From: Lachnospiraceae bacterium
Lineage (GTDB): Bacteria; Bacillota; Clostridia; Lachnospirales; Lachnospiraceae
Direction: 5' to 3'
Length of the DNA stretch: 64,000 bases
Assembly: GCA_017450485.1 (NCBI GenBank)
Contig: JAFSTN010000040.1
Location: 37,945-101,944 of the forward strand
Part shown: positions 54,559-63,797 of the stretch, one piece after another
Position numbering within the stretch: the first letter of the stretch is position 1
Layout of the letters: each line of letters starts with the position of its first letter
Program-made: the position numbers and the translations under genes
The notes under the pieces: generated by a model
What the model saw: the letters and a program-made list of their open reading frames with translations, nothing else
Database searches by the model: none
Told to the model about the DNA's origin: nothing

Positions 54559-55338
54559 ATGAGCGTAGTATCAATGAAACAGTTACTGGAAGCAGGTGTT
54601 CACTTCGGACACCAGACCCGCAGATGGAACCCTAAGATGGCTCCCTACATCTTTACCGAGCGTAACGGGATCCATATCATCGACCTGCAGAAGTCAGTAG
54701 GCAAGGTTGATGAGGCTTACAATGCGGTATTCGATATCGCTTCCCAGGGCGGTACCATCCTTTTCGTAGGTACCAAGAAGCAGGCTCAGGATGCGGTTAA
54801 GACCGAGGCTGAGCGTTGCGGTATGTTCTATGTAAATGAGAGATGGCTCGGTGGTATGCTGACCAACTTCCGTACCATTCGTTCACGTGTAGACAGACTC
54901 AAAGCTATCGAGAGAATGTCTGAAGACGGTACATTTGATGTACTTCCCAAGAAGGAAGTAGTACAGCTGCGTAAGGAGTGGGAGAAGCTTGAGAAGAACC
55001 TCGGCGGTATCAAGAAAATGACCCGCATTCCCGACGCTATCTTCGTAGTGGATCCCAAGAAAGAGCACATCTGCGTACAGGAAGCTCATTCACTCGGCAT
55101 CACACTGATCGGTATCGGTGATACCAACTGCGATCCCGAAGAGCTTGATTACGTGATCCCCGGCAATGACGATGCTATCCGTGCCGTTAAGCTTCTTACA
55201 TCCAAGATGGCAGATGCAGTCATCGAAGCAAACCAGGGTGAAGAGATGGTTACGGCAGATGAGATGGCAGGAGATGCAGAAGAGGCAGAAGCAGCAGAAG
55301 CAGCAGATATCGAAGAGGTAGCTGCTGAAGAAGAATAA
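54559..55338 (+). CDS. rpsB: 30S ribosomal protein S2
   Basis: A 259-residue S2 with the signatures [21 protein letters not shown] near the N-terminus and [17 protein letters not shown] further on. The acidic Glu/Ala C-terminal tail of about 25 residues is common in Clostridia. It is paired with tsf as in most bacteria. An ATGGAGG site lies 9 bases ahead of the ATG. Confidence 0.97.
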
Positions 55339-55361
55339 GATAGATTGAGGAGGATATAGAT

Positions 55362-56282
55362 ATGGCTGAGATTACAGCATCCATGGTCAAGGAACTGCGC
55401 GAGACTACAGGCGCAGGTATGATGGACTGCAAAAAGGCACTTGCCGAGACAGACGGCAATATGGAAGAAGCTATCGAGGTGCTCAGAAAGAGCGGCGCTG
55501 CCAAGGCTGAGAAGAAGGCCGGCAGGATCGCAGCAGAGGGTATCTGCCGAGTAGCTATAGATAATGATAAGACAGCTGCAGTTGTTGAGGTTAACTCCGA
55601 GACAGACTTCGTAGCAAAGAATGAAGTATTCCAGAGCTTCGTAGAGGGTGTTGCAAAGCAGGCGCTCGCTTCCGGAGCAAATGATGTCGAAGCTCTCCTT
55701 GAGGAGAAGTGGAACGAGGATGCTTCCAAGACCGTTAAGGATGTTCTGGTTGAGAAGACCGCTACTATCGGCGAGAAGCTTTCTGTCAGAAGATTCGAGA
55801 AGGCATCCGGTGACTGCGTAGTCTCTTATCTGCACGGTGGCGGACGTATCGGCGTGGTTGTAGCTGCTGACGGCGCAGGTAATGATGCATCCGTTAAGGA
55901 AGCTCTTACCAACGTAGCAATGCAGATCGCAGCCATGAGCCCCAAGTTCATCGCCGACAGCGACGTTGACCAGTCCTATATCGATCATGAGACCGAGATC
56001 CTCAAGGCTCAGATGGATGCAGATCCCAAGGAAGCCGCAAAGCCCGAGCAGGTCAAGGCCGGTATCATCAAGGGCCGTGTAAATAAGCTGCTCAAGGATG
56101 TCGTACTCCTTGATCAGGTATATGTCAGAGCAGAGGATGGCAAGCAGTCGGTAGCACAGTACCTTGCATCCGTTAATAAGGACCTCAAGCTTACCAAGTT
56201 CATCCGTTTCGAGGTAGGTGAGGGCATGGAGAAGAAGAACGAAGATTTTGCGGCTGAAGTTGCAGCTCAGATGAACGCCTGA
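55362..56282 (+). CDS. tsf: Translation elongation factor Ts
   Basis: A 306-residue EF-Ts, the nucleotide exchange factor of EF-Tu. The N-terminal UBA-like domain has KELRETTGAGMMDCKKAL, and the core has VVEVNSETDFVAKNE. The last third shows QVYVRAEDGKQSVAQYL and ends normally. The gene follows rpsB by 23 bases with a GAGGAGG site and is closed by an intrinsic terminator. Confidence 0.97.
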   Translation: MAEITASMVKELRETTGAGMMDCKKALAETDGNMEEAIEVLRKSGAAKAEKKAGRIAAEGICRVAIDNDKTAAVVEVNSETDFVAKNEVFQSFVEGVAKQALASGANDVEALLEEKWNEDASKTVKDVLVEKTATIGEKLSVRRFEKASGDCVVSYLHGGGRIGVVVAADGAGNDASVKEALTNVAMQIAAMSPKFIADSDVDQSYIDHETEILKAQMDADPKEAAKPEQVKAGIIKGRVNKLLKDVVLLDQVYVRAEDGKQSVAQYLASVNKDLKLTKFIRFEVGEGMEKKNEDFAAEVAAQMNA

Positions 56283-56308
56283 TTCTTCCGAATCGATGTA
56301 AATATGAG

Positions 56309-56338
56309 GCACCCGGGTTATATATCCGGGTGCTTTTT
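56309..56338 (+). terminator. Intrinsic terminator of rpsB-tsf
   Basis: GCACCCGG at 56309-56316 pairs perfectly with CCGGGTGC at 56326-56333, followed by five T. Confidence 0.9.
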
Positions 56339-56360
56339 ATACTCTCGCACGGGGTTTATA

Positions 56361-56369
56361 TGCTATACT
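56361..56369 (+). promoter_or_regulatory. Extended -10 promoter of the sulfhydrylase gene
   Basis: TGCTATACT at 56361-56369 contains a TG extension and a TATACT box. The -35 region is weak. Transcription would start near 56376, about 30 bases before the ATG. No S-box or T-box leader is present. Confidence 0.55.
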
Positions 56370-56406
56370 TATTTAGATATTATTCTACCCAAAGGAGAGG
56401 CTTACG

Positions 56407-57690
56407 ATGAGTGATTACAGGATCAATACCAAATGTGTACAGGGCGGTTATACACCGGGCAACGGAGAACCCAGACAGATACCTATCATACAGTCCACGA
56501 CATTTAAGTATGATACGAGTGAGGATATGGGTAAGCTATTTGATCTGGAGGCGAGCGGATACTTTTATACCAGGCTTCAGAATCCCACGAATGATCTCGT
56601 GGCAGCGAAGATCGCCGAGCTTGAGGGCGGTACCGCGGCCATGCTCACCAGTTCCGGTCAGGCGGCGAACTTCTTTGCACTCTTTAATATATGCGAATGC
56701 GGATCGCATATCGTGGCTTCGTCATCCATATACGGAGGAACCTTCAACCTGATTGCTGTAACTATGGCTAAAATGGGCATAGATGTGACATTTGTCACAC
56801 CGGATGCAAGCGAGGAAGAGCTGAACGCGGCTTTCCGTGATAATACCCGGGCCATGTTCGGAGAGACTATCGCCAATCCTGCGCTTACGGTGCTTGATAT
56901 TGAGAAGTTCGCCCGTGTGGCTCATGCCCATGGAGTACCGCTCATTGTAGATAATACATTCCCGACTCCCGTCAACTGCCGTCCCATAGAGTGGGGAGCC
57001 GATATCGTTACCCACTCCACCACCAAGTATATGGATGGTCACGGTGCTGCGGTTGGCGGCGCCATAGTTGATTCCGGTAAGTTCGACTGGATGGCACATG
57101 CCGATAAGTTCCCCGGTCTGTGTACTCCCGATGACTCATACCATGGGATCACCTATGCCGAGAAGTTTGGGATTGGCGGAGCTTTCATAACCAAGTGTAC
57201 GGCACAGCTGATGCGTGATTTCGGCTGCATACAGTCGCCGCAGAATGCTTTTCTGTTAAATCTCGGACTGGAATCTCTGCATGTGCGTATGCCCAGACAC
57301 GTGGAGAACGGACAGGCGGTAGCCGAGTTCCTGGAGGCACAGCCTCAGGTCACTCACGTAAGCTACCCCGGTCTCAAATCAGATAAATACTATGAAACGG
57401 CAAAGAAGTATATGCCTAACGGCGGTTGCGGAGTGGTGAGCTTCGAGCTGGCCGGTGGCAGGGCCGCAGCGGAGAAGTTCATGAAGAATCTGAAGCTGGC
57501 TGCGATCGAGACGCATGTCGCCGATGCGCGTACATGCTGTCTGAACCCCGCTACCAGCACACACCGTCAGATGACTGATGAGCAGCTCGCCGAAGCAGGC
57601 ATTCCCGCCGGACTTGTTCGTATGTCCTGCGGACTTGAGGACAAGCAAGACCTGATAGATGATCTGTCCCAGGCCCTGGCTTCGGTTTGA
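56407..57690 (+). CDS. metY: O-acetylhomoserine sulfhydrylase (aminocarboxypropyltransferase)
   Basis: A 427-residue PLP enzyme of the Cys/Met metabolism family that makes homocysteine from O-acetylhomoserine and sulfide. Family stretches are GEPRQIPIIQSTTFKYD, FYTRLQNPTNDLVAAKIAELEGG and GSHIVASSSIYGGT. The PLP lysine is Lys207 in HSTTKYMDGHG, and the end shows RMSCGLEDKQDLIDDL. An AAAGGAGAGG site precedes the ATG. MetB/MetZ-type activities cannot be excluded, but the length over 420 residues and sequence style favour MetY. Confidence 0.9.
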   Translation: MSDYRINTKCVQGGYTPGNGEPRQIPIIQSTTFKYDTSEDMGKLFDLEASGYFYTRLQNPTNDLVAAKIAELEGGTAAMLTSSGQAANFFALFNICECGSHIVASSSIYGGTFNLIAVTMAKMGIDVTFVTPDASEEELNAAFRDNTRAMFGETIANPALTVLDIEKFARVAHAHGVPLIVDNTFPTPVNCRPIEWGADIVTHSTTKYMDGHGAAVGGAIVDSGKFDWMAHADKFPGLCTPDDSYHGITYAEKFGIGGAFITKCTAQLMRDFGCIQSPQNAFLLNLGLESLHVRMPRHVENGQAVAEFLEAQPQVTHVSYPGLKSDKYYETAKKYMPNGGCGVVSFELAGGRAAAEKFMKNLKLAAIETHVADARTCCLNPATSTHRQMTDEQLAEAGIPAGLVRMSCGLEDKQDLIDDLSQALASV

Positions 57691-57694
57691 TATT

Positions 57695-58741
57695 ATGAAG
57701 AAAGCATTCAAAGCTGCAGGGATCATTCTCGGAGCGATCATACTGATCCCTGTATTATTCGTTGCATATCTGAGGATCACGATGTATTCGCCCGAAGCCG
57801 AGGAGAAGCTTGAGGTCCATCCCGGGAGCGCCACCGTGAGTGAGGGAGACGAACTCAGTATCCTGACGTTTAATCTGGGTTATGCCGGCTACAATAAGAG
57901 CGAGGATTTCTTTATGGACGGAGGAAAGGGTGTACTCCCCGAGTCCTCGGATGCAGTCATGGAGAATCTGTCCGGCATAGCATCAGCGATCAACGAGCAG
58001 GATTGCGATATCGTGATGGCTCAGGAAGTTGATGTGGATTCACACAGGTCATATAACATCAACGAGGTGGCTTACCTCAGTTCATCCATCGGCATGCAGC
58101 CTGTTTTTGCATGCAATTATAAGGTCGCATTCGTACCTTATCCGATACCTCCTCTGGGTAAAACCTACAGCGGACTGGCTACTTATACACGCCTGAACGT
58201 ACGTGAGGCGGTGAGATATGCTCTGCCCGAAGCCGCACCGTGGTATATGTCGCCGGGGTATCTCAAGAGATGTCTGCTCGTGGAACGTATCCCGGTTGAG
58301 GATTCGGATAAGGAGCTTGTCCTGATCAATCATCATCTGGAGGCATATACCGATGAAGAGAAAAGGGATGGGCAGTTTAAGGTGCTCAATAACCTGATCG
58401 AGGAGGAGTATGCCAGGGGCAATTACGTGATCGTCGGAGGTGATTTCAATCAGGAATTCGAGATGAACAACAATCCTCCGATACTCTCGGAGACAGGATG
58501 GCTTCCCGGTGAGATCAAAGCTTCGGATATCCCCGAAGGTTTCTATGCGGCAGTAGCCGATAATGCACCTTCGTGCCGTTCACTTGAAGCACCCTTTGAA
58601 AGCAATGAGACATCTCAGGTGTATATCATAGACGGATTCATATTATCCGATAATGTGGAAGTGAAGTCGGTCGAAGTGTGTGATTACGGGTTCGCGAGTT
58701 CCGATCATAACCCTGTCCGTCTGGAGGTCAGACTCAGATGA
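57695..58741 (+). CDS. Endonuclease/exonuclease/phosphatase family protein with N-terminal membrane anchor
   Basis: A 348-residue protein. A hydrophobic helix (about residues 7-27) anchors it, so the catalytic domain is probably outside the membrane. The fold's motifs are visible: LTFNLGYAG, AQEVD, LINHHLEAY, VGGDFNQEF and the catalytic SSDHNPVRLEV at the end. Possible substrates include nucleic acids, phosphodiesters or phospholipids, and cannot be chosen. The ATG at 57695 is 4 bases after metY; the open frame begins earlier, inside metY, and is not used. Confidence 0.85.
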   Translation: MKKAFKAAGIILGAIILIPVLFVAYLRITMYSPEAEEKLEVHPGSATVSEGDELSILTFNLGYAGYNKSEDFFMDGGKGVLPESSDAVMENLSGIASAINEQDCDIVMAQEVDVDSHRSYNINEVAYLSSSIGMQPVFACNYKVAFVPYPIPPLGKTYSGLATYTRLNVREAVRYALPEAAPWYMSPGYLKRCLLVERIPVEDSDKELVLINHHLEAYTDEEKRDGQFKVLNNLIEEEYARGNYVIVGGDFNQEFEMNNNPPILSETGWLPGEIKASDIPEGFYAAVADNAPSCRSLEAPFESNETSQVYIIDGFILSDNVEVKSVEVCDYGFASSDHNPVRLEVRLR

Positions 58742-58792
58742 AAACCAGCAAAGCTAAGTTCTATGTGCGGGAGTAGATTAGCGGAGGAATGT

Positions 58793-61700
58793 ATGGGGAT
58801 CAAATCGTCAAGTTATGAGTTGGAATTTGTAAACGGCGGTGTGGAAGTCAGGAAAAGCGGTGAAACGCTGTACTTCAACCGCCGTCCTTTGTATGCATAT
58901 GTCAAGACAGCTATGGCGGTGACGGAATTCTATGACATGCCGTACGCGGACTGTGAAACATTGGATGACGGGAAGGTGAAGGCCGGCGGCATCATGGAGA
59001 CACCCGGCGGATCAAGGCTTGAATTTGAGGACATATATGAGGTACAGCAGGACGGCTTTCTCATCTCGCGTACATTGAAGGTGCTTAACAAAGGCGCCGA
59101 CGACCTGGGCTTTGCATCCAAGATATCACTGGTGCTGGCTGATGCGGATACCGTCAGGGATTATCACTGCTTCGCGCCTTCTACCTGGTACAGGGATAAC
59201 GAATACGCCCGTCCGAACGTGATAGGAGTAGATGCGGAATGTGAGTATCACTGGAGAAAGGAGACCGGGCTTACGTTGCCTCTTTTTGCCGCTCAGAGCA
59301 AAAGAAACGGTGAAACGGTCATGTTCTCCCGTAATAAGGCTGATGTCACTCTCCCCGGAACGAGAGAATATCATTTCACTCAGGCCATAGACAGGGATTA
59401 TACCGTGGGCGCTATCGGACTCTCCAGACCCGAGGCGCGCACTCTTAACTATCTGTATTACGGATTCCCGGTGCGCAAGGATACCGAAGCAGTGGCTGAA
59501 GGCCTGACCATCGATTACGTATATCCCGGATCCGACGGACAGGTGGGCGACAGGCAGCAGTTATATGATGTCGATTACATGATGAGGACCAAGTCCTTCA
59601 ACAGGGTGCTTCATCCCATGGAGATCGGATTCACGGATCACTATGAGGTACGGCTGGATCTCGGATGTTTCGATGATTATTACCGGATGATGCGCTGGGC
59701 ATGGCGTTCGGTATATGACAGGCTGCGGGATGATCTGTTCGAGGTCGATCAGGAATTGCAGTATCACAATAATATCAACGCGCTGAAAGCACTGGCCAGA
59801 GATTACGGAGACGGTGTGTGGGGCGTGCCTTTTTCCGCTTTTCTCCCGGGCATGGATGTGGACAGCATCTCGCTCCAGTTCGGATTCGTCGGACAGCAGC
59901 CCGGTATCGGCTACCAGCTGATGGTATACGGCTACCGTGAGGATGACCGGGAGGCACTCGATAAAGGACGGAATATAGTCAGCTTCTGGGCGAAGAATGG
60001 CTTGAATGAAAACGGATCGCCCAACGGGTGTTACAGCCCCATCAACCGGGCTTTCGAACCCTACCCGATATGGCTGCGCATGTCAGCCGACGGTCTGGAG
60101 AATATTCTGGATGCTTATGTTCTGACAGCCGGTCACGGAGAGGAGCATGCCGACTGGCTTGAGTTCTGCGAGAGGGCAGCAGGCTTTTTCCTGGGAGTCC
60201 AGAATGATGACGGCTCCTTCTATCGTGCGTATGAGCCGGACGGAAAGATGAGAATGGATTCGAAGGCCAACACGATCAGCATAGTCAGATTCTTCGTCAA
60301 TCTATATCAGGTGACCGGCAAGGCGGAGTACAGGGATTGTGCCCTGAGAGCCGGCAAGTGGTCATATGACAACGTCTATAAGCATATGGAGTACAGAGGC
60401 TCCACCTGTGACAACACCGATATCACAGATAATGAGTCGGGTATCTATGCAATGTTCGGTTTCCTCGCGCTCTACGATCTGACCGGAGAGGGTAAGTGGC
60501 TGGATGCTTTGCTCGGAGCCGCTGACTATACGGAGACGTGGACATATTCATGGAGCTTCCCGGTGTATTGCAATGTACCGCATTCTCCTCTGAAGGACCG
60601 ATCCATCAGCGGACTCAGTCCGGTTACCGTCGGCGGAGGCGGCGGTGATATGTATATGGCTGCATGCGCATTTCTCTACTACCGCATATACGTGATCACC
60701 GGCGATGAGCATTACAGGGATTACGCGGAGTTCATCCATAACAATTCCAGACAGGCGAATGATGTCTACGGTGAATATGGTTATGCCCTGCAGGGACTGT
60801 CCTGGGAGGGTACGTGGTTCGCCGATCAGGTCATAGAATCCCTGCATCACTGGCTGCCCTGGGTTACTTACGTAGAGGTTGATCCCACATCGCGGCTCCT
60901 GGATTCTTTCGGAGCCTATGACATAGCCGGTTGCGAGAAGCTTCGGACCGGTAAGAATGAGAAATGCGTCCGAAAGCCCGGGAAGTATGCGCAGCTGTGG
61001 CTCGGATATAGAGAAAAGAAGAATAACAGGGACTTAAGGCAGCTTAAAAAGGTGATCTTCCTCGGCGCAGACAGTTCCGATGCAGTGGCGAAGAATGCCG
61101 CGAAAGAGCTGACGAACGGCCTGCGGGAGATGCTGGACACAGAGCCGGAGATAGTCTTCGGCGCGGATCCCGCACCGAATGAGGTCACATGCGGCAGGGA
61201 TATTCTGGACAACGAGGAATATGCCGTTTCACTTACCGATGACTCCATAACCATCGAATCCAAAAGCAATACCGGGATCCTCTACGGTGTATTCGATATA
61301 CTGCGGACAGTAGCTGTGGGTAAAAGCGTGGTTGAGACATATAAAGACGGCAGGCGTGTCCGCCCTTCCAATCCGCTCAGGATGCTGAACCACTGGGACA
61401 ACATGGATGGAAGCATAGAGAGAGGGTATTCCGGAGAGTCATTTTTCTATGTGAATAATGAGATCGTCATCAACGAGCGTACACGGGATTATGCGAGACT
61501 CATAGCCTCAGTCGGCATAAACGCCGTAGTCATCAACAATGTCAATGTGAAGGATGCCGCCTCATACATGATCACCGACAGGTATTACGAGCGCCTGGAA
61601 AAGCTCGGCTCGATATTTGCCGGATACGGGATCAGATTATTCTTAAGCCTGAATTATGCATCGACCATAGAGATAGGCGGACTGGACAGTGCCGATCCTC

Positions 61701-62977
61701 TGGATGAGAAAGTGATCGAATGGTGGAAGGCTAAGATGGCCGAGGTTTTCGCAAAGATACCGTCACTGGGCGGATTCCTCGTAAAAGCTGACTCGGAAGG
61801 ACGTCCGGGGCCTTTTACATACGGCAGGACACAGGCAGACGGAGCAAACATGCTCGCGGACATAGTTAAAGACTATGGCGGGATCATCATATGGAGATGC
61901 TTCGTATATAACTGCAGGCAGGACTGGCGAGATTATAAGACCGACAGAGCCAGGTCGGCGTTTGATAATTTCATGCCCATGGACGGGGATTATCATGGAA
62001 ACGTAATCCTCCAGATCAAGAACGGTCCCATGGATTTCCAGATCAGGGAACCCGTATCGCCTCTGATCGGGGGACTTAAGAAGACCAATCAGATGCTTGA
62101 GGTTCAGATCGCCCAGGAATACACCGGACACCAGATCGATGTATGCTATCTGATCCCCGAGTTTAAGGAGATACTGGGATTCAGGACTTTCTGCAGCGAA
62201 GCAAAGGATACCGTGGCGGACATAATCAGCGGGGAGACTTACGGCAGCAGATATTCGGGAATAGCAGCAGTCACCAATACTGGAAACACCCCGAACTGGA
62301 CCGGCAACTATCTCGCGGGAGCAAATCTCTACGGATTCGGCAGGATCGCCTTTGATACGGAGCTGTCCGCAGAGCAGATCGCGGAAGAGTTCGTCAGGAT
62401 GACCATCTCGGATGATGATGAGGTTGTGGAGACAATAGTCGGGATTTTACTTCCCTCGAGGGAGATATACGAGAGATACACCAGCCCTCTCGGAATCGGG
62501 TGGATGGTTCAGCCTGCGACCCACTACGGGTGCAGCGTCGACGGATACGAGTATGACAGGTGGGGTACATATCACAGGGCCGATCACCTGGGTATCGGAG
62601 TGGACAGGACCGATAAAGGAACCGGCTATGCGCTTCTGTACAATGAACCCAATGCATCCGTATACAATTCACCGGATGACTGTCCGGATGAGCTGGTGCT
62701 GTTTTTCCATCATCTGCCCTATACGCATAAGCTTCACAGTGGCAAGACCGTGATACAGCACATTTACGATACTCATTTCGAGGGATACGAAGAAGCAAAG
62801 CAGCTGGCCGCAAAATGGGATTCACTCAAGGGAAAGATAGATGATGTTGTCTATGAGAATGTCCGTGAGCGTTTCGAACTCCAGATATTGAATGCACGTG
62901 AGTGGTGCGACCAGGTGAATTCCTATTTCTATCGCAAGAGCGGGATACCGGATGAGCACGGCAGACAGATATGGTAA
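58793..62977 (+). CDS. Fusion of an unidentified (alpha/alpha)-barrel-like region with a GH67 alpha-glucuronidase
   Basis: A 1394-residue soluble protein without signal peptide. Residues about 1-285 look beta-rich, and 290-715 look like an (alpha/alpha) barrel with aromatic and acidic loops. I cannot name the family of this half. From about 748 it is a complete GH67 enzyme: N domain 748-850, then RMLNHWDNMDGSIERGY at the catalytic barrel start. The catalytic residues are Glu1002 (VKADSEGRPGPF), Asp1081 (IKNGPMDF) and Glu1109 (QIAQEYTG). Their spacings, 79 and 28, equal those I recall for the Geobacillus enzyme. GH67 removes 4-O-methylglucuronate from the end of xylo-oligosaccharides. The ATG at 58793 follows GGAGGAA; an ATG at 58763 lacks a site. 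Confidence 0.87.
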   Translation: MGIKSSSYELEFVNGGVEVRKSGETLYFNRRPLYAYVKTAMAVTEFYDMPYADCETLDDGKVKAGGIMETPGGSRLEFEDIYEVQQDGFLISRTLKVLNKGADDLGFASKISLVLADADTVRDYHCFAPSTWYRDNEYARPNVIGVDAECEYHWRKETGLTLPLFAAQSKRNGETVMFSRNKADVTLPGTREYHFTQAIDRDYTVGAIGLSRPEARTLNYLYYGFPVRKDTEAVAEGLTIDYVYPGSDGQVGDRQQLYDVDYMMRTKSFNRVLHPMEIGFTDHYEVRLDLGCFDDYYRMMRWAWRSVYDRLRDDLFEVDQELQYHNNINALKALARDYGDGVWGVPFSAFLPGMDVDSISLQFGFVGQQPGIGYQLMVYGYREDDREALDKGRNIVSFWAKNGLNENGSPNGCYSPINRAFEPYPIWLRMSADGLENILDAYVLTAGHGEEHADWLEFCERAAGFFLGVQNDDGSFYRAYEPDGKMRMDSKANTISIVRFFVNLYQVTGKAEYRDCALRAGKWSYDNVYKHMEYRGSTCDNTDITDNESGIYAMFGFLALYDLTGEGKWLDALLGAADYTETWTYSWSFPVYCNVPHSPLKDRSISGLSPVTVGGGGGDMYMAACAFLYYRIYVITGDEHYRDYAEFIHNNSRQANDVYGEYGYALQGLSWEGTWFADQVIESLHHWLPWVTYVEVDPTSRLLDSFGAYDIAGCEKLRTGKNEKCVRKPGKYAQLWLGYREKKNNRDLRQLKKVIFLGADSSDAVAKNAAKELTNGLREMLDTEPEIVFGADPAPNEVTCGRDILDNEEYAVSLTDDSITIESKSNTGILYGVFDILRTVAVGKSVVETYKDGRRVRPSNPLRMLNHWDNMDGSIERGYSGESFFYVNNEIVINERTRDYARLIASVGINAVVINNVNVKDAASYMITDRYYERLEKLGSIFAGYGIRLFLSLNYASTIEIGGLDSADPLDEKVIEWWKAKMAEVFAKIPSLGGFLVKADSEGRPGPFTYGRTQADGANMLADIVKDYGGIIIWRCFVYNCRQDWRDYKTDRARSAFDNFMPMDGDYHGNVILQIKNGPMDFQIREPVSPLIGGLKKTNQMLEVQIAQEYTGHQIDVCYLIPEFKEILGFRTFCSEAKDTVADIISGETYGSRYSGIAAVTNTGNTPNWTGNYLAGANLYGFGRIAFDTELSAEQIAEEFVRMTISDDDEVVETIVGILLPSREIYERYTSPLGIGWMVQPATHYGCSVDGYEYDRWGTYHRADHLGIGVDRTDKGTGYALLYNEPNASVYNSPDDCPDELVLFFHHLPYTHKLHSGKTVIQHIYDTHFEGYEEAKQLAAKWDSLKGKIDDVVYENVRERFELQILNAREWCDQVNSYFYRKSGIPDEHGRQIW

Positions 62978-63008: not shown

Positions 63009-63797
63009 ATGTATGGTGAGATGAGAGAAAACCCGGCAGAATACCGTAAAGTATTTGATACCATTCCGGAACAGTTTGACAGATTCAGACCGCGTTACAG
63101 TGCGGAGCTGTTTGCATATTTTATAGAGAAAGCAGGCATCGGAACCGGGACGAAGGTGCTGGAGATCGGTCCGGGAACCGGGCAGGCAACTGATCCGATC
63201 CTGGATACCGGCTGCGATTATAATGCGATCGAGCTGGGGGAGCACCTCTATGCCAAGATGAAGGAGAAATATGGCAGCCGGTCAAACTTCAGTATCGTGA
63301 ATGACGACTTCATCACCCATGATTTCGGAACCCGGAAGTTTGATGTGATCTATTCTGCGGCAACGATACAGTGGATCCCGGAGAGAATCGCTTTTCCCAA
63401 AACGCTGGAGCTGTTAAGGTCAGGCGGAACACTGGCAATGATGTATCTGATCGGTGATTATAAAACTCCAAACGAGGAACTGTACAGCAAGATCCAGAAG
63501 GTATATGACGAATACTATAAGCCGGTGACGGAATATAAGAACATGAAGGAGCCATTTGACTATCTTCATGCGACGGATTACGGTTACGTGGATATGACGC
63601 GGAAGGATTTCCACGGGAAACGGGTATTTACGGCAGATGAATATGTGCAGTATTGCGGTACACACAGCGACCATATACTGATCCCGGAGCCGTATAAGAC
63701 GAAATTCTTTGAGGGGCTTCGAAACACGGTACTTGCGGGAGGTGACAAGGTCGAATTCCGGGATACCTATGTGTTATATCTGGCGAAGAAACCATAG
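63009..63797 (+). CDS. SAM-dependent class I methyltransferase
   Basis: A 262-residue methyltransferase. The N-terminus has EQFDRFRPRYSAELF, common in a family of small-molecule methyltransferases. The SAM motif is VLEIGPGTGQATDPIL (residues ~52-67), followed by the acidic IELGEHL, DDF and FDVIYSAATIQWI stretches. The C-terminal part is family-typical. The substrate is unknown. It starts 31 bases after the GH67 fusion gene with a weak site (AAGGGA), so co-transcription is possible but not shown. Confidence 0.85.
   Translation: MYGEMRENPAEYRKVFDTIPEQFDRFRPRYSAELFAYFIEKAGIGTGTKVLEIGPGTGQATDPILDTGCDYNAIELGEHLYAKMKEKYGSRSNFSIVNDDFITHDFGTRKFDVIYSAATIQWIPERIAFPKTLELLRSGGTLAMMYLIGDYKTPNEELYSKIQKVYDEYYKPVTEYKNMKEPFDYLHATDYGYVDMTRKDFHGKRVFTADEYVQYCGTHSDHILIPEPYKTKFFEGLRNTVLAGGDKVEFRDTYVLYLAKKP

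Follow-up and report, generated by a model that had tools for sequence, protein, structure and literature searches.

A 64,000-nucleotide stretch of a Lachnospiraceae bacterium genome (assembly GCA_017450485.1, contig JAFSTN010000040.1, positions 37,945 to 101,944), referred to here as the window, contains a single gene in which a domain of the XuaI family precedes a complete alpha-glucuronidase of glycoside hydrolase (GH) family 67. We read it as a true fusion within one Lachnospiraceae genus, whose two-domain product is predicted to act in the cytosol on imported fragments of (glucurono)arabinoxylan, and put the probability of this reading, based on sequence comparison, at about 0.6. Both GH67 and XuaI are already known. 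The additions made here are the fusion, the spread of the XuaI family, its link to GH127 and a set of candidate catalytic acids.

The fused gene and its GH67 half

Inspection of the open reading frames of the window gave one frame of 1394 residues without internal stops, as stated in an earlier sequence-only reading of this DNA. The first ATG lies 30 bases farther upstream (frame 58763..62977, 1404 residues), but the later ATG at 58793 was preferred because the sequence GGAGG is found just 5' of it and the alignments of most relatives begin close to it. The gene is present as a single copy in the genome of its host, a rumen-type gut bacterium. Its product has no evident secretion signal and no hydrophobic start. 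An Exo_endo_phos gene lies upstream and a methyltransferase gene downstream; no xylanase or transporter gene was seen among the adjoining genes inspected, also in line with the earlier reading.

The C-terminal half matched the Pfam domains Glyco_hydro_67M (residues 856-1169, E 6.2e-144, 479.5 bits with a cut-off of 23.5) and 67C (residues 1170-1391, E 2.7e-90, 302.2 bits with a cut-off of 27). The N-terminal domain 67N (residues 735-835) scored 22.6 bits, under its cut-off of 24.3, and residues 732-1394 aligned over the full length with the best solved relative, alpha-glucuronidase 1k9d (E 1.6e-242). In this alignment E1002, D1081 and E1109, which we take to be the catalytic acids of GH67, face the same letters. 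The complete GH67 enzyme that had been proposed for the last ~645 residues, with its three acids at these positions, was thus recovered, and strong homology predicts alpha-glucuronidase activity for this half. In the GH67 phylogeny suggested at that time, a quick tree with support from the Shimodaira-Hasegawa-like approximate likelihood ratio test (SH-aLRT) only, the half grouped with the sequences of genomes G600, G598, G599 and G116 (support 100).

Identity and fold of the front half

To identify the front half, a profile check of residues 1-745 against Pfam and CAZy had been proposed; its Pfam part was run and returned known GH families only under the cut-off. The GH127 catalytic domain scored 23.3 bits (cut-off 24.9) over about 70 residues, GH76 18.7 (25.9) and pectic lyase 14.3 (22). 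Scanning NCBIfam gave nothing over cut-off, and a PDB sequence search gave no match except a chance-level one to ubiquitin (E 1.5). Matches were found in 8 of 250 genomes of the family and 6 of 392 genomes of the order, the source genome being included each time, and three full-length relatives from another family of the order showed 46, 46 and 43% identity. When an alignment of full-length relatives was scanned against a named genome collection, 130 relatives were obtained, of which the best 80 (L026-L105) were kept. These are stand-alone proteins of ~735 residues with 46-77% identity, and they come from Lachnospiraceae, other Clostridia, Paenibacillaceae, Bacillaceae and Microbacteriaceae. 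In a plasmid collection, the three matches obtained were partial, with 22-32% identity. An alignment of 58 members (A2) was built from the front half of the window's gene, three other relatives and 54 loci chosen from the 80; the remaining 26 were left out as partial, alike or, in the case of L074, having a stop inside the match range.

The identity of the family emerged from gene order. The family member of Ruminiclostridium papyrosolvens (L082) is 51% identical to the front half over query residues 1-717. It has 732 residues and lies in a series of genes for GH43, GH51, an 86-residue open reading frame, GH43, GH39 (a call that rests on a cluster with a scanned member), a 264-residue esterase, the family member itself and a 627-residue SASA-type protein. 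The published xua operon of R. cellulolyticum encodes XuaD (GH51), XuaD' (88 residues), GH43, GH8 and GH39 enzymes, the esterase XuaH, XuaI (732 residues, function unknown) and the esterase XuaJ (PMC9675976, PMC11127375). Apart from the lack of an open reading frame at the GH8 place and one additional GH43 gene in R. papyrosolvens, the order and lengths agree. By this gene order, with the R. papyrosolvens protein compared in place of R. cellulolyticum XuaI, the front half belongs to the XuaI family and so is not undescribed, contrary to the earlier suggestion that it may be of a new family. One study, which names Pfam and CAZy among its sources, calls XuaI a protein of unknown function and states that it could not be studied because the recombinant protein was recovered only in a small, proteolysed amount (PMC9675976). 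In another, xuaI is placed in the xua operon, XuaH is shown to be an esterase for feruloyl and p-coumaroyl groups, and XuaJ is shown to be an acetyl esterase (PMC11127375). Neither an activity of XuaI nor a GH67-XuaI fusion was found in the literature searched, which was that open in PubMed Central.

In a tree of the family, a clade of 12 rows (support 100/100) unites the front half with sequences from Lachnospiraceae, Clostridiales and Eubacterium genomes. Its end branch is 0.34, against 0.11-0.29 in its tree neighbours. Decay of the front half was considered and rejected: it departs from only 1 near-invariant column, whereas other rows depart from up to 15. In the same tree, members from Microbacteriaceae (Actinomycetota; L069, L073, L090 and L093) nest among Paenibacillaceae rows, which suggests gene transfer. 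A further set of more distant proteins, also stand-alone (L003-L008, L010-L012 and L016; ~680-780 residues, 22-34% local identity), possibly represents several undescribed families of one superfamily; 2 of the 10 scanned pass a Pfam cut-off, and three lie near GH127 genes.

Weak family matches (E up to 1) among the 58 members were mostly to GH127 (56, best E 1e-8) and GH76 (52), followed by pectic lyase (39), GH88 (16), GlcNAc 2-epimerase (6) and C5-epimerase (2). Profile-profile comparison with hhalign of a broad alignment (A3) with six GH127 rows gave 94% probability (P 1.3e-7) over 250 columns, and A2 gave 85% with the same rows. None of 11 control alignments, each limited to 12 members of a cluster and compared with A3 alone, exceeded 0.4%. 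The second part of the front half therefore appears to be a distant profile relative of GH127 with an (alpha/alpha)-toroid-like fold. This gives substance to the (alpha/alpha)-barrel-like region of the sequence-only reading. For the first ~340 residues, the only relatives found were those of the family and of its more distant members.

Membership of GH127 itself was rejected. Besides the Pfam score under cut-off, the Glu-x-Cys motif of GH127 is faced by Ala623-x-Cys625, with Ala623, invariant in 58 of 58 members, at the place of the Glu. The columns conserved in at least 55 of the 58 include C459, C539 and C625 and no adjacent Cys pair; the Cys-Cys part of GH127 falls outside the profile-aligned stretch. 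We take both motifs to be functional in GH127. Four acids, D80, D540, D546 and E672, do not vary among the 11 rows of an alignment that includes six distant relatives, and D540, D546 and E672 are candidate catalytic acids. The coordinates of all features are collected in Table 1.

Table 1. Features of the fused gene and its flanks (window positions)
Feature	Position	Strand	Basis
Left flank: rpsB-, tsf-, sulfhydrylase-like (names presumed) and Exo_endo_phos genes	54559..58741	+	same genes before XBB2008 stand-alone GH67
Whole fused gene, 1394 residues plus stop	58793..62977	+	open frame; single-copy in own genome
Front half, XuaI-family domain, residues 1-717	58793..60943	+	full-length alignment with stand-alone relatives; xuaI gene-order match
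GH127-profile-aligned part, residues 357-648, (alpha/alpha)-toroid-like	59861..60736	+	hhalign
D540 to D546 codons, two invariant acids, candidate catalytic	60410..60430	+	11/11 distant rows
E672 codon, invariant, candidate catalytic	60806..60808	+	11/11 distant rows
Junction, residues 718-731, unlike either parent family	60944..60985	+	no ATG in frame
Complete GH67 alpha-glucuronidase (predicted), residues 732-1394	60986..62974	+	Pfam domains, alignment with 1k9d
E1002 codon, GH67	61796..61798	+	alignment with 1k9d
D1081 codon, GH67	62033..62035	+	alignment with 1k9d
E1109 codon, GH67	62117..62119	+	alignment with 1k9d
Right flank, methyltransferase	63009..63797	+	77% homologue downstream of G116 stand-alone GH67, after two genes

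Junction, flanks and distribution of the fusion

The ends of stand-alone proteins were compared with the junction. In 15 stand-alone front-half relatives, 14 to 22 residues lie between the position of the CEKL sequence and the stop. Among four stand-alone GH67 genes, three have an ATG three codons before a shared Tyr; the fourth has His there. In the window the halves are bridged by 14 residues that resemble neither family, and the first in-frame ATG and GTG of the GH67 part occur only at M780 and V754. The guanine-plus-cytosine (GC) contents of the halves agree (0.527 and 0.510 overall, 0.626 and 0.618 at third positions); the flanking genes have values of 0.481-0.530 and 0.529-0.580, so that the halves are a little above them for third-position GC.

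The surroundings of the fused gene correspond to GH67 loci of relatives. The genes of the left flank, for which we presume the names rpsB, tsf and sulfhydrylase, also precede the stand-alone GH67 gene of XBB2008 (G599), an isolate of the same genus, where two further genes lie in between. The identity to XBB2008 is 95% for the rpsB-like, 94% for the sulfhydrylase-like and 72% for the Exo_endo_phos protein; the tsf-like gene was matched by eye. On the right, a methyltransferase 77% identical to that of the window lies downstream of the stand-alone GH67 gene of G116, from another genus, with two genes in between. As both flanks match GH67 loci, the fused gene would occupy the ancestral GH67 site, with the XuaI part as the newcomer. 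In G600, also of the same genus, a stand-alone GH67 gene (L145, 9985-11997, minus strand) has unlike neighbours, and the GH67 site therefore differs between species of the genus.

Some features of the assembly could point to an artefact, either a chimera or a missed stop between what are in reality two genes: the source genome is a draft of 49 contigs with 91% completeness, the fused gene lies about 1 kb from a contig end, and the fusion is absent from all relatives sampled. However, with both outer flanks belonging to GH67 loci a chimera would need two joins, and a single missed stop would leave no normal GH67 gene since no in-frame ATG precedes the GH67 part. The agreement in GC content between the halves also argues against this explanation, which we consider highly improbable. 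Because of the flanks and the lack of an own ATG for GH67 at the junction, a true fusion appears much likelier than an artefact.

GH67 matches occurred in 38 of 397 genomes of the family, 69 of 392 of the order and 24 of 398 of the phylum (the sets overlap and include the source genome), and among the matches listed the only open frame longer than 864 residues was that of the window. Conversely, none of the 80 front-half loci had GH67 in the same frame or in the DNA fetched with it (flanks up to 10 kb, several contigs being short). The search for other GH67-XuaI fusions across the genome sets sampled gave none, and within these the fusion was seen in the source genome only. Of the seven genomes of the genus, four gave matches: the source genome, G598, G599 and G600. 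XBB2008 has the front-half gene and GH67 apart, on contigs C5 and C6. They are also apart in G598, where GH67 is in two pieces at contig ends and has its own ATG. G600 has GH67 and one weak front-half match (24%), and G041, G597 and G601 matched neither half.

This distribution would fit a scenario in which an XuaI-family gene came directly before GH67 at the old GH67 site, within one Lachnospiraceae genus, after which the stop and start between the two were lost. Such an event could have been accidental, joining halves that work on different substrates to no benefit. The occurrence in one genome among those sampled, the short junction unlike either parent and the separate genes on different contigs in XBB2008 would agree with this. 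It is at odds with the ties of both families, by homology or operon company, to the use of intracellular xylan fragments, and we regard it as decidedly improbable, though less so than an artefact.

Proposed function and relation to known systems

To obtain information on the role of the XuaI family, we surveyed its gene company. Among the 80 loci, clusters of GH51 (22), GH43 (16), carboxylesterase (15, of which 13 directly adjacent), esterase-D type (6), GH39 (4) and CE20-like (3) genes were found, their names based on protein-family scans of one to a few sequences each; the names of regulator and transporter clusters are those we presume. At least one of these six hydrolase and esterase types was present in 38 of the 80 loci and directly adjoined the family gene on the same strand in 27. 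Sugar-type ATP-binding cassette permeases were found in 44 of the 80 loci. The family thus often lies beside enzymes for arabinoxylan oligosaccharides, which agrees with the link to intracellular xylan fragments proposed earlier. In Thermobacillus xylanilyticus (L052) the family gene lies next to a carboxylesterase gene whose product might be the feruloyl esterase Tx-Est1 (PMC3541102), an identity that we treat as a lead and did not adopt. The source genome itself contains two GH10, eight GH43 and one GH51 frames. Its GH51 gene (L152, C9:82000-101000) lies 3' of an apparent sugar-binding protein and two permeases, identified by eye, with two GH43 genes farther upstream; this is likely an arabinoxylan-fragment operon, unlinked to the fused gene.

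The fused protein is probably cytosolic, given its lack of a hydrophobic start and the statement of the papers for XuaI. By homology, the GH67 half would act on imported aldouronic acids and release the (4-O-methyl-)glucuronic acid carried by their terminal xylose. The XuaI half, which we infer to be catalytic, would be a toroid-fold glycosidase, with D540, D546 and E672 as possible catalytic acids, acting on the same fragments to remove a further decoration or terminal sugar. Clearing of the non-reducing end by the XuaI half would yield a substrate for GH67, and this would explain the joining of the halves in one debranching enzyme. An arabinoxylan side group is the first guess for the target of the XuaI half because relatives adjoin esterase and GH51 genes. 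A further-reaching version, to which we give somewhat less than even odds, is that the XuaI half founds an undescribed GH family that removes a side group or chain of glucuronoarabinoxylan fragments, for instance from feruloylated or doubly decorated units, with the bifunctional fusion handing its product to GH67. For the earlier idea of a carbohydrate-active domain, gene company and the GH127 likeness speak in favor, while catalysis and target are suggested rather than observed.

Several results weigh against the proposal of a two-domain xylan-fragment enzyme. No hydrolase or esterase cluster of the above types was found in 42 of the 80 loci, and among the 13 nearest loci listed, some on short contigs, only L032 and L097 hold such clusters. 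No member of the XuaI family has a reported activity, no second fusion is known that would indicate selection for joining, and the protein compared was that of R. papyrosolvens rather than R. cellulolyticum XuaI itself. Concerning the fold, comparison with a two-row GH127 profile gave 16.8%, and GH95, whose fold is (alpha/alpha), came out at the level of the negative controls; the profile test therefore does not find every (alpha/alpha) fold. A PDB profile search gave nothing significant, with six matches at E 0.17-1, the best being an S-layer protein (E 0.17), and LanC-like toroids at E 0.52-0.95.

The front half could also be a toroid other than a hydrolase, of sugar-binding, epimerase- or lyase-like type, that holds or modifies the oligosaccharide or the released sugar. 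Its weak matches include pectic lyase (39 of 58) and the two epimerase types, and sugar-acid genes (IlvD, FAH, DHDPS, ALDH or enolase types) occur in 14 of the 80 loci, one ALDH being over the cut-off for alpha-ketoglutaric semialdehyde dehydrogenase. Yet GH127 and GH76 are the commonest weak matches, the neighbours are mostly hydrolases and esterases, and the sugar-acid genes would also suit the use of released pentose. We consider this alternative unlikely. In R. cellobioparum (L083, L086) IlvD and DHDPS types lie upstream of the family gene and in Cohnella (L065, L088) FAH, ALDH and IlvD types downstream, perhaps a sign that pentose is used oxidatively alongside the breakdown of xylan fragments.

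In the published system for arabinoxylan use inside the cell, XuaI is one of the large proteins. Its natural fusion to an enzyme whose substrate is known directs attention to xylan fragments that bear glucuronic acid, and suggests a role as a xylan-fragment enzyme that becomes testable through the fusion. The fused protein is another construct to express, given the proteolysis of recombinant XuaI, and a family of at least 80 loci with a short list of residues for mutation is now at hand.

In comparison with known systems, the GH67 half shares its whole length and key residues with 1k9d and its kin; the other GH67 frames sampled have at most 864 residues, whereas here the XuaI part in front brings the protein to 1394. 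With GH127 beta-L-arabinofuranosidase the front half has a remote similarity at profile level across some 250 columns of the toroid, but Ala623-x-Cys625 faces the Glu-x-Cys motif. With XuaI it shares a length of ~732 residues and the lack of an evident signal peptide, the R. papyrosolvens counterpart lying between an esterase and a SASA-type esterase. XuaI is a stand-alone protein, while the front half described here is fused to GH67 and lies away from any xua-like operon.

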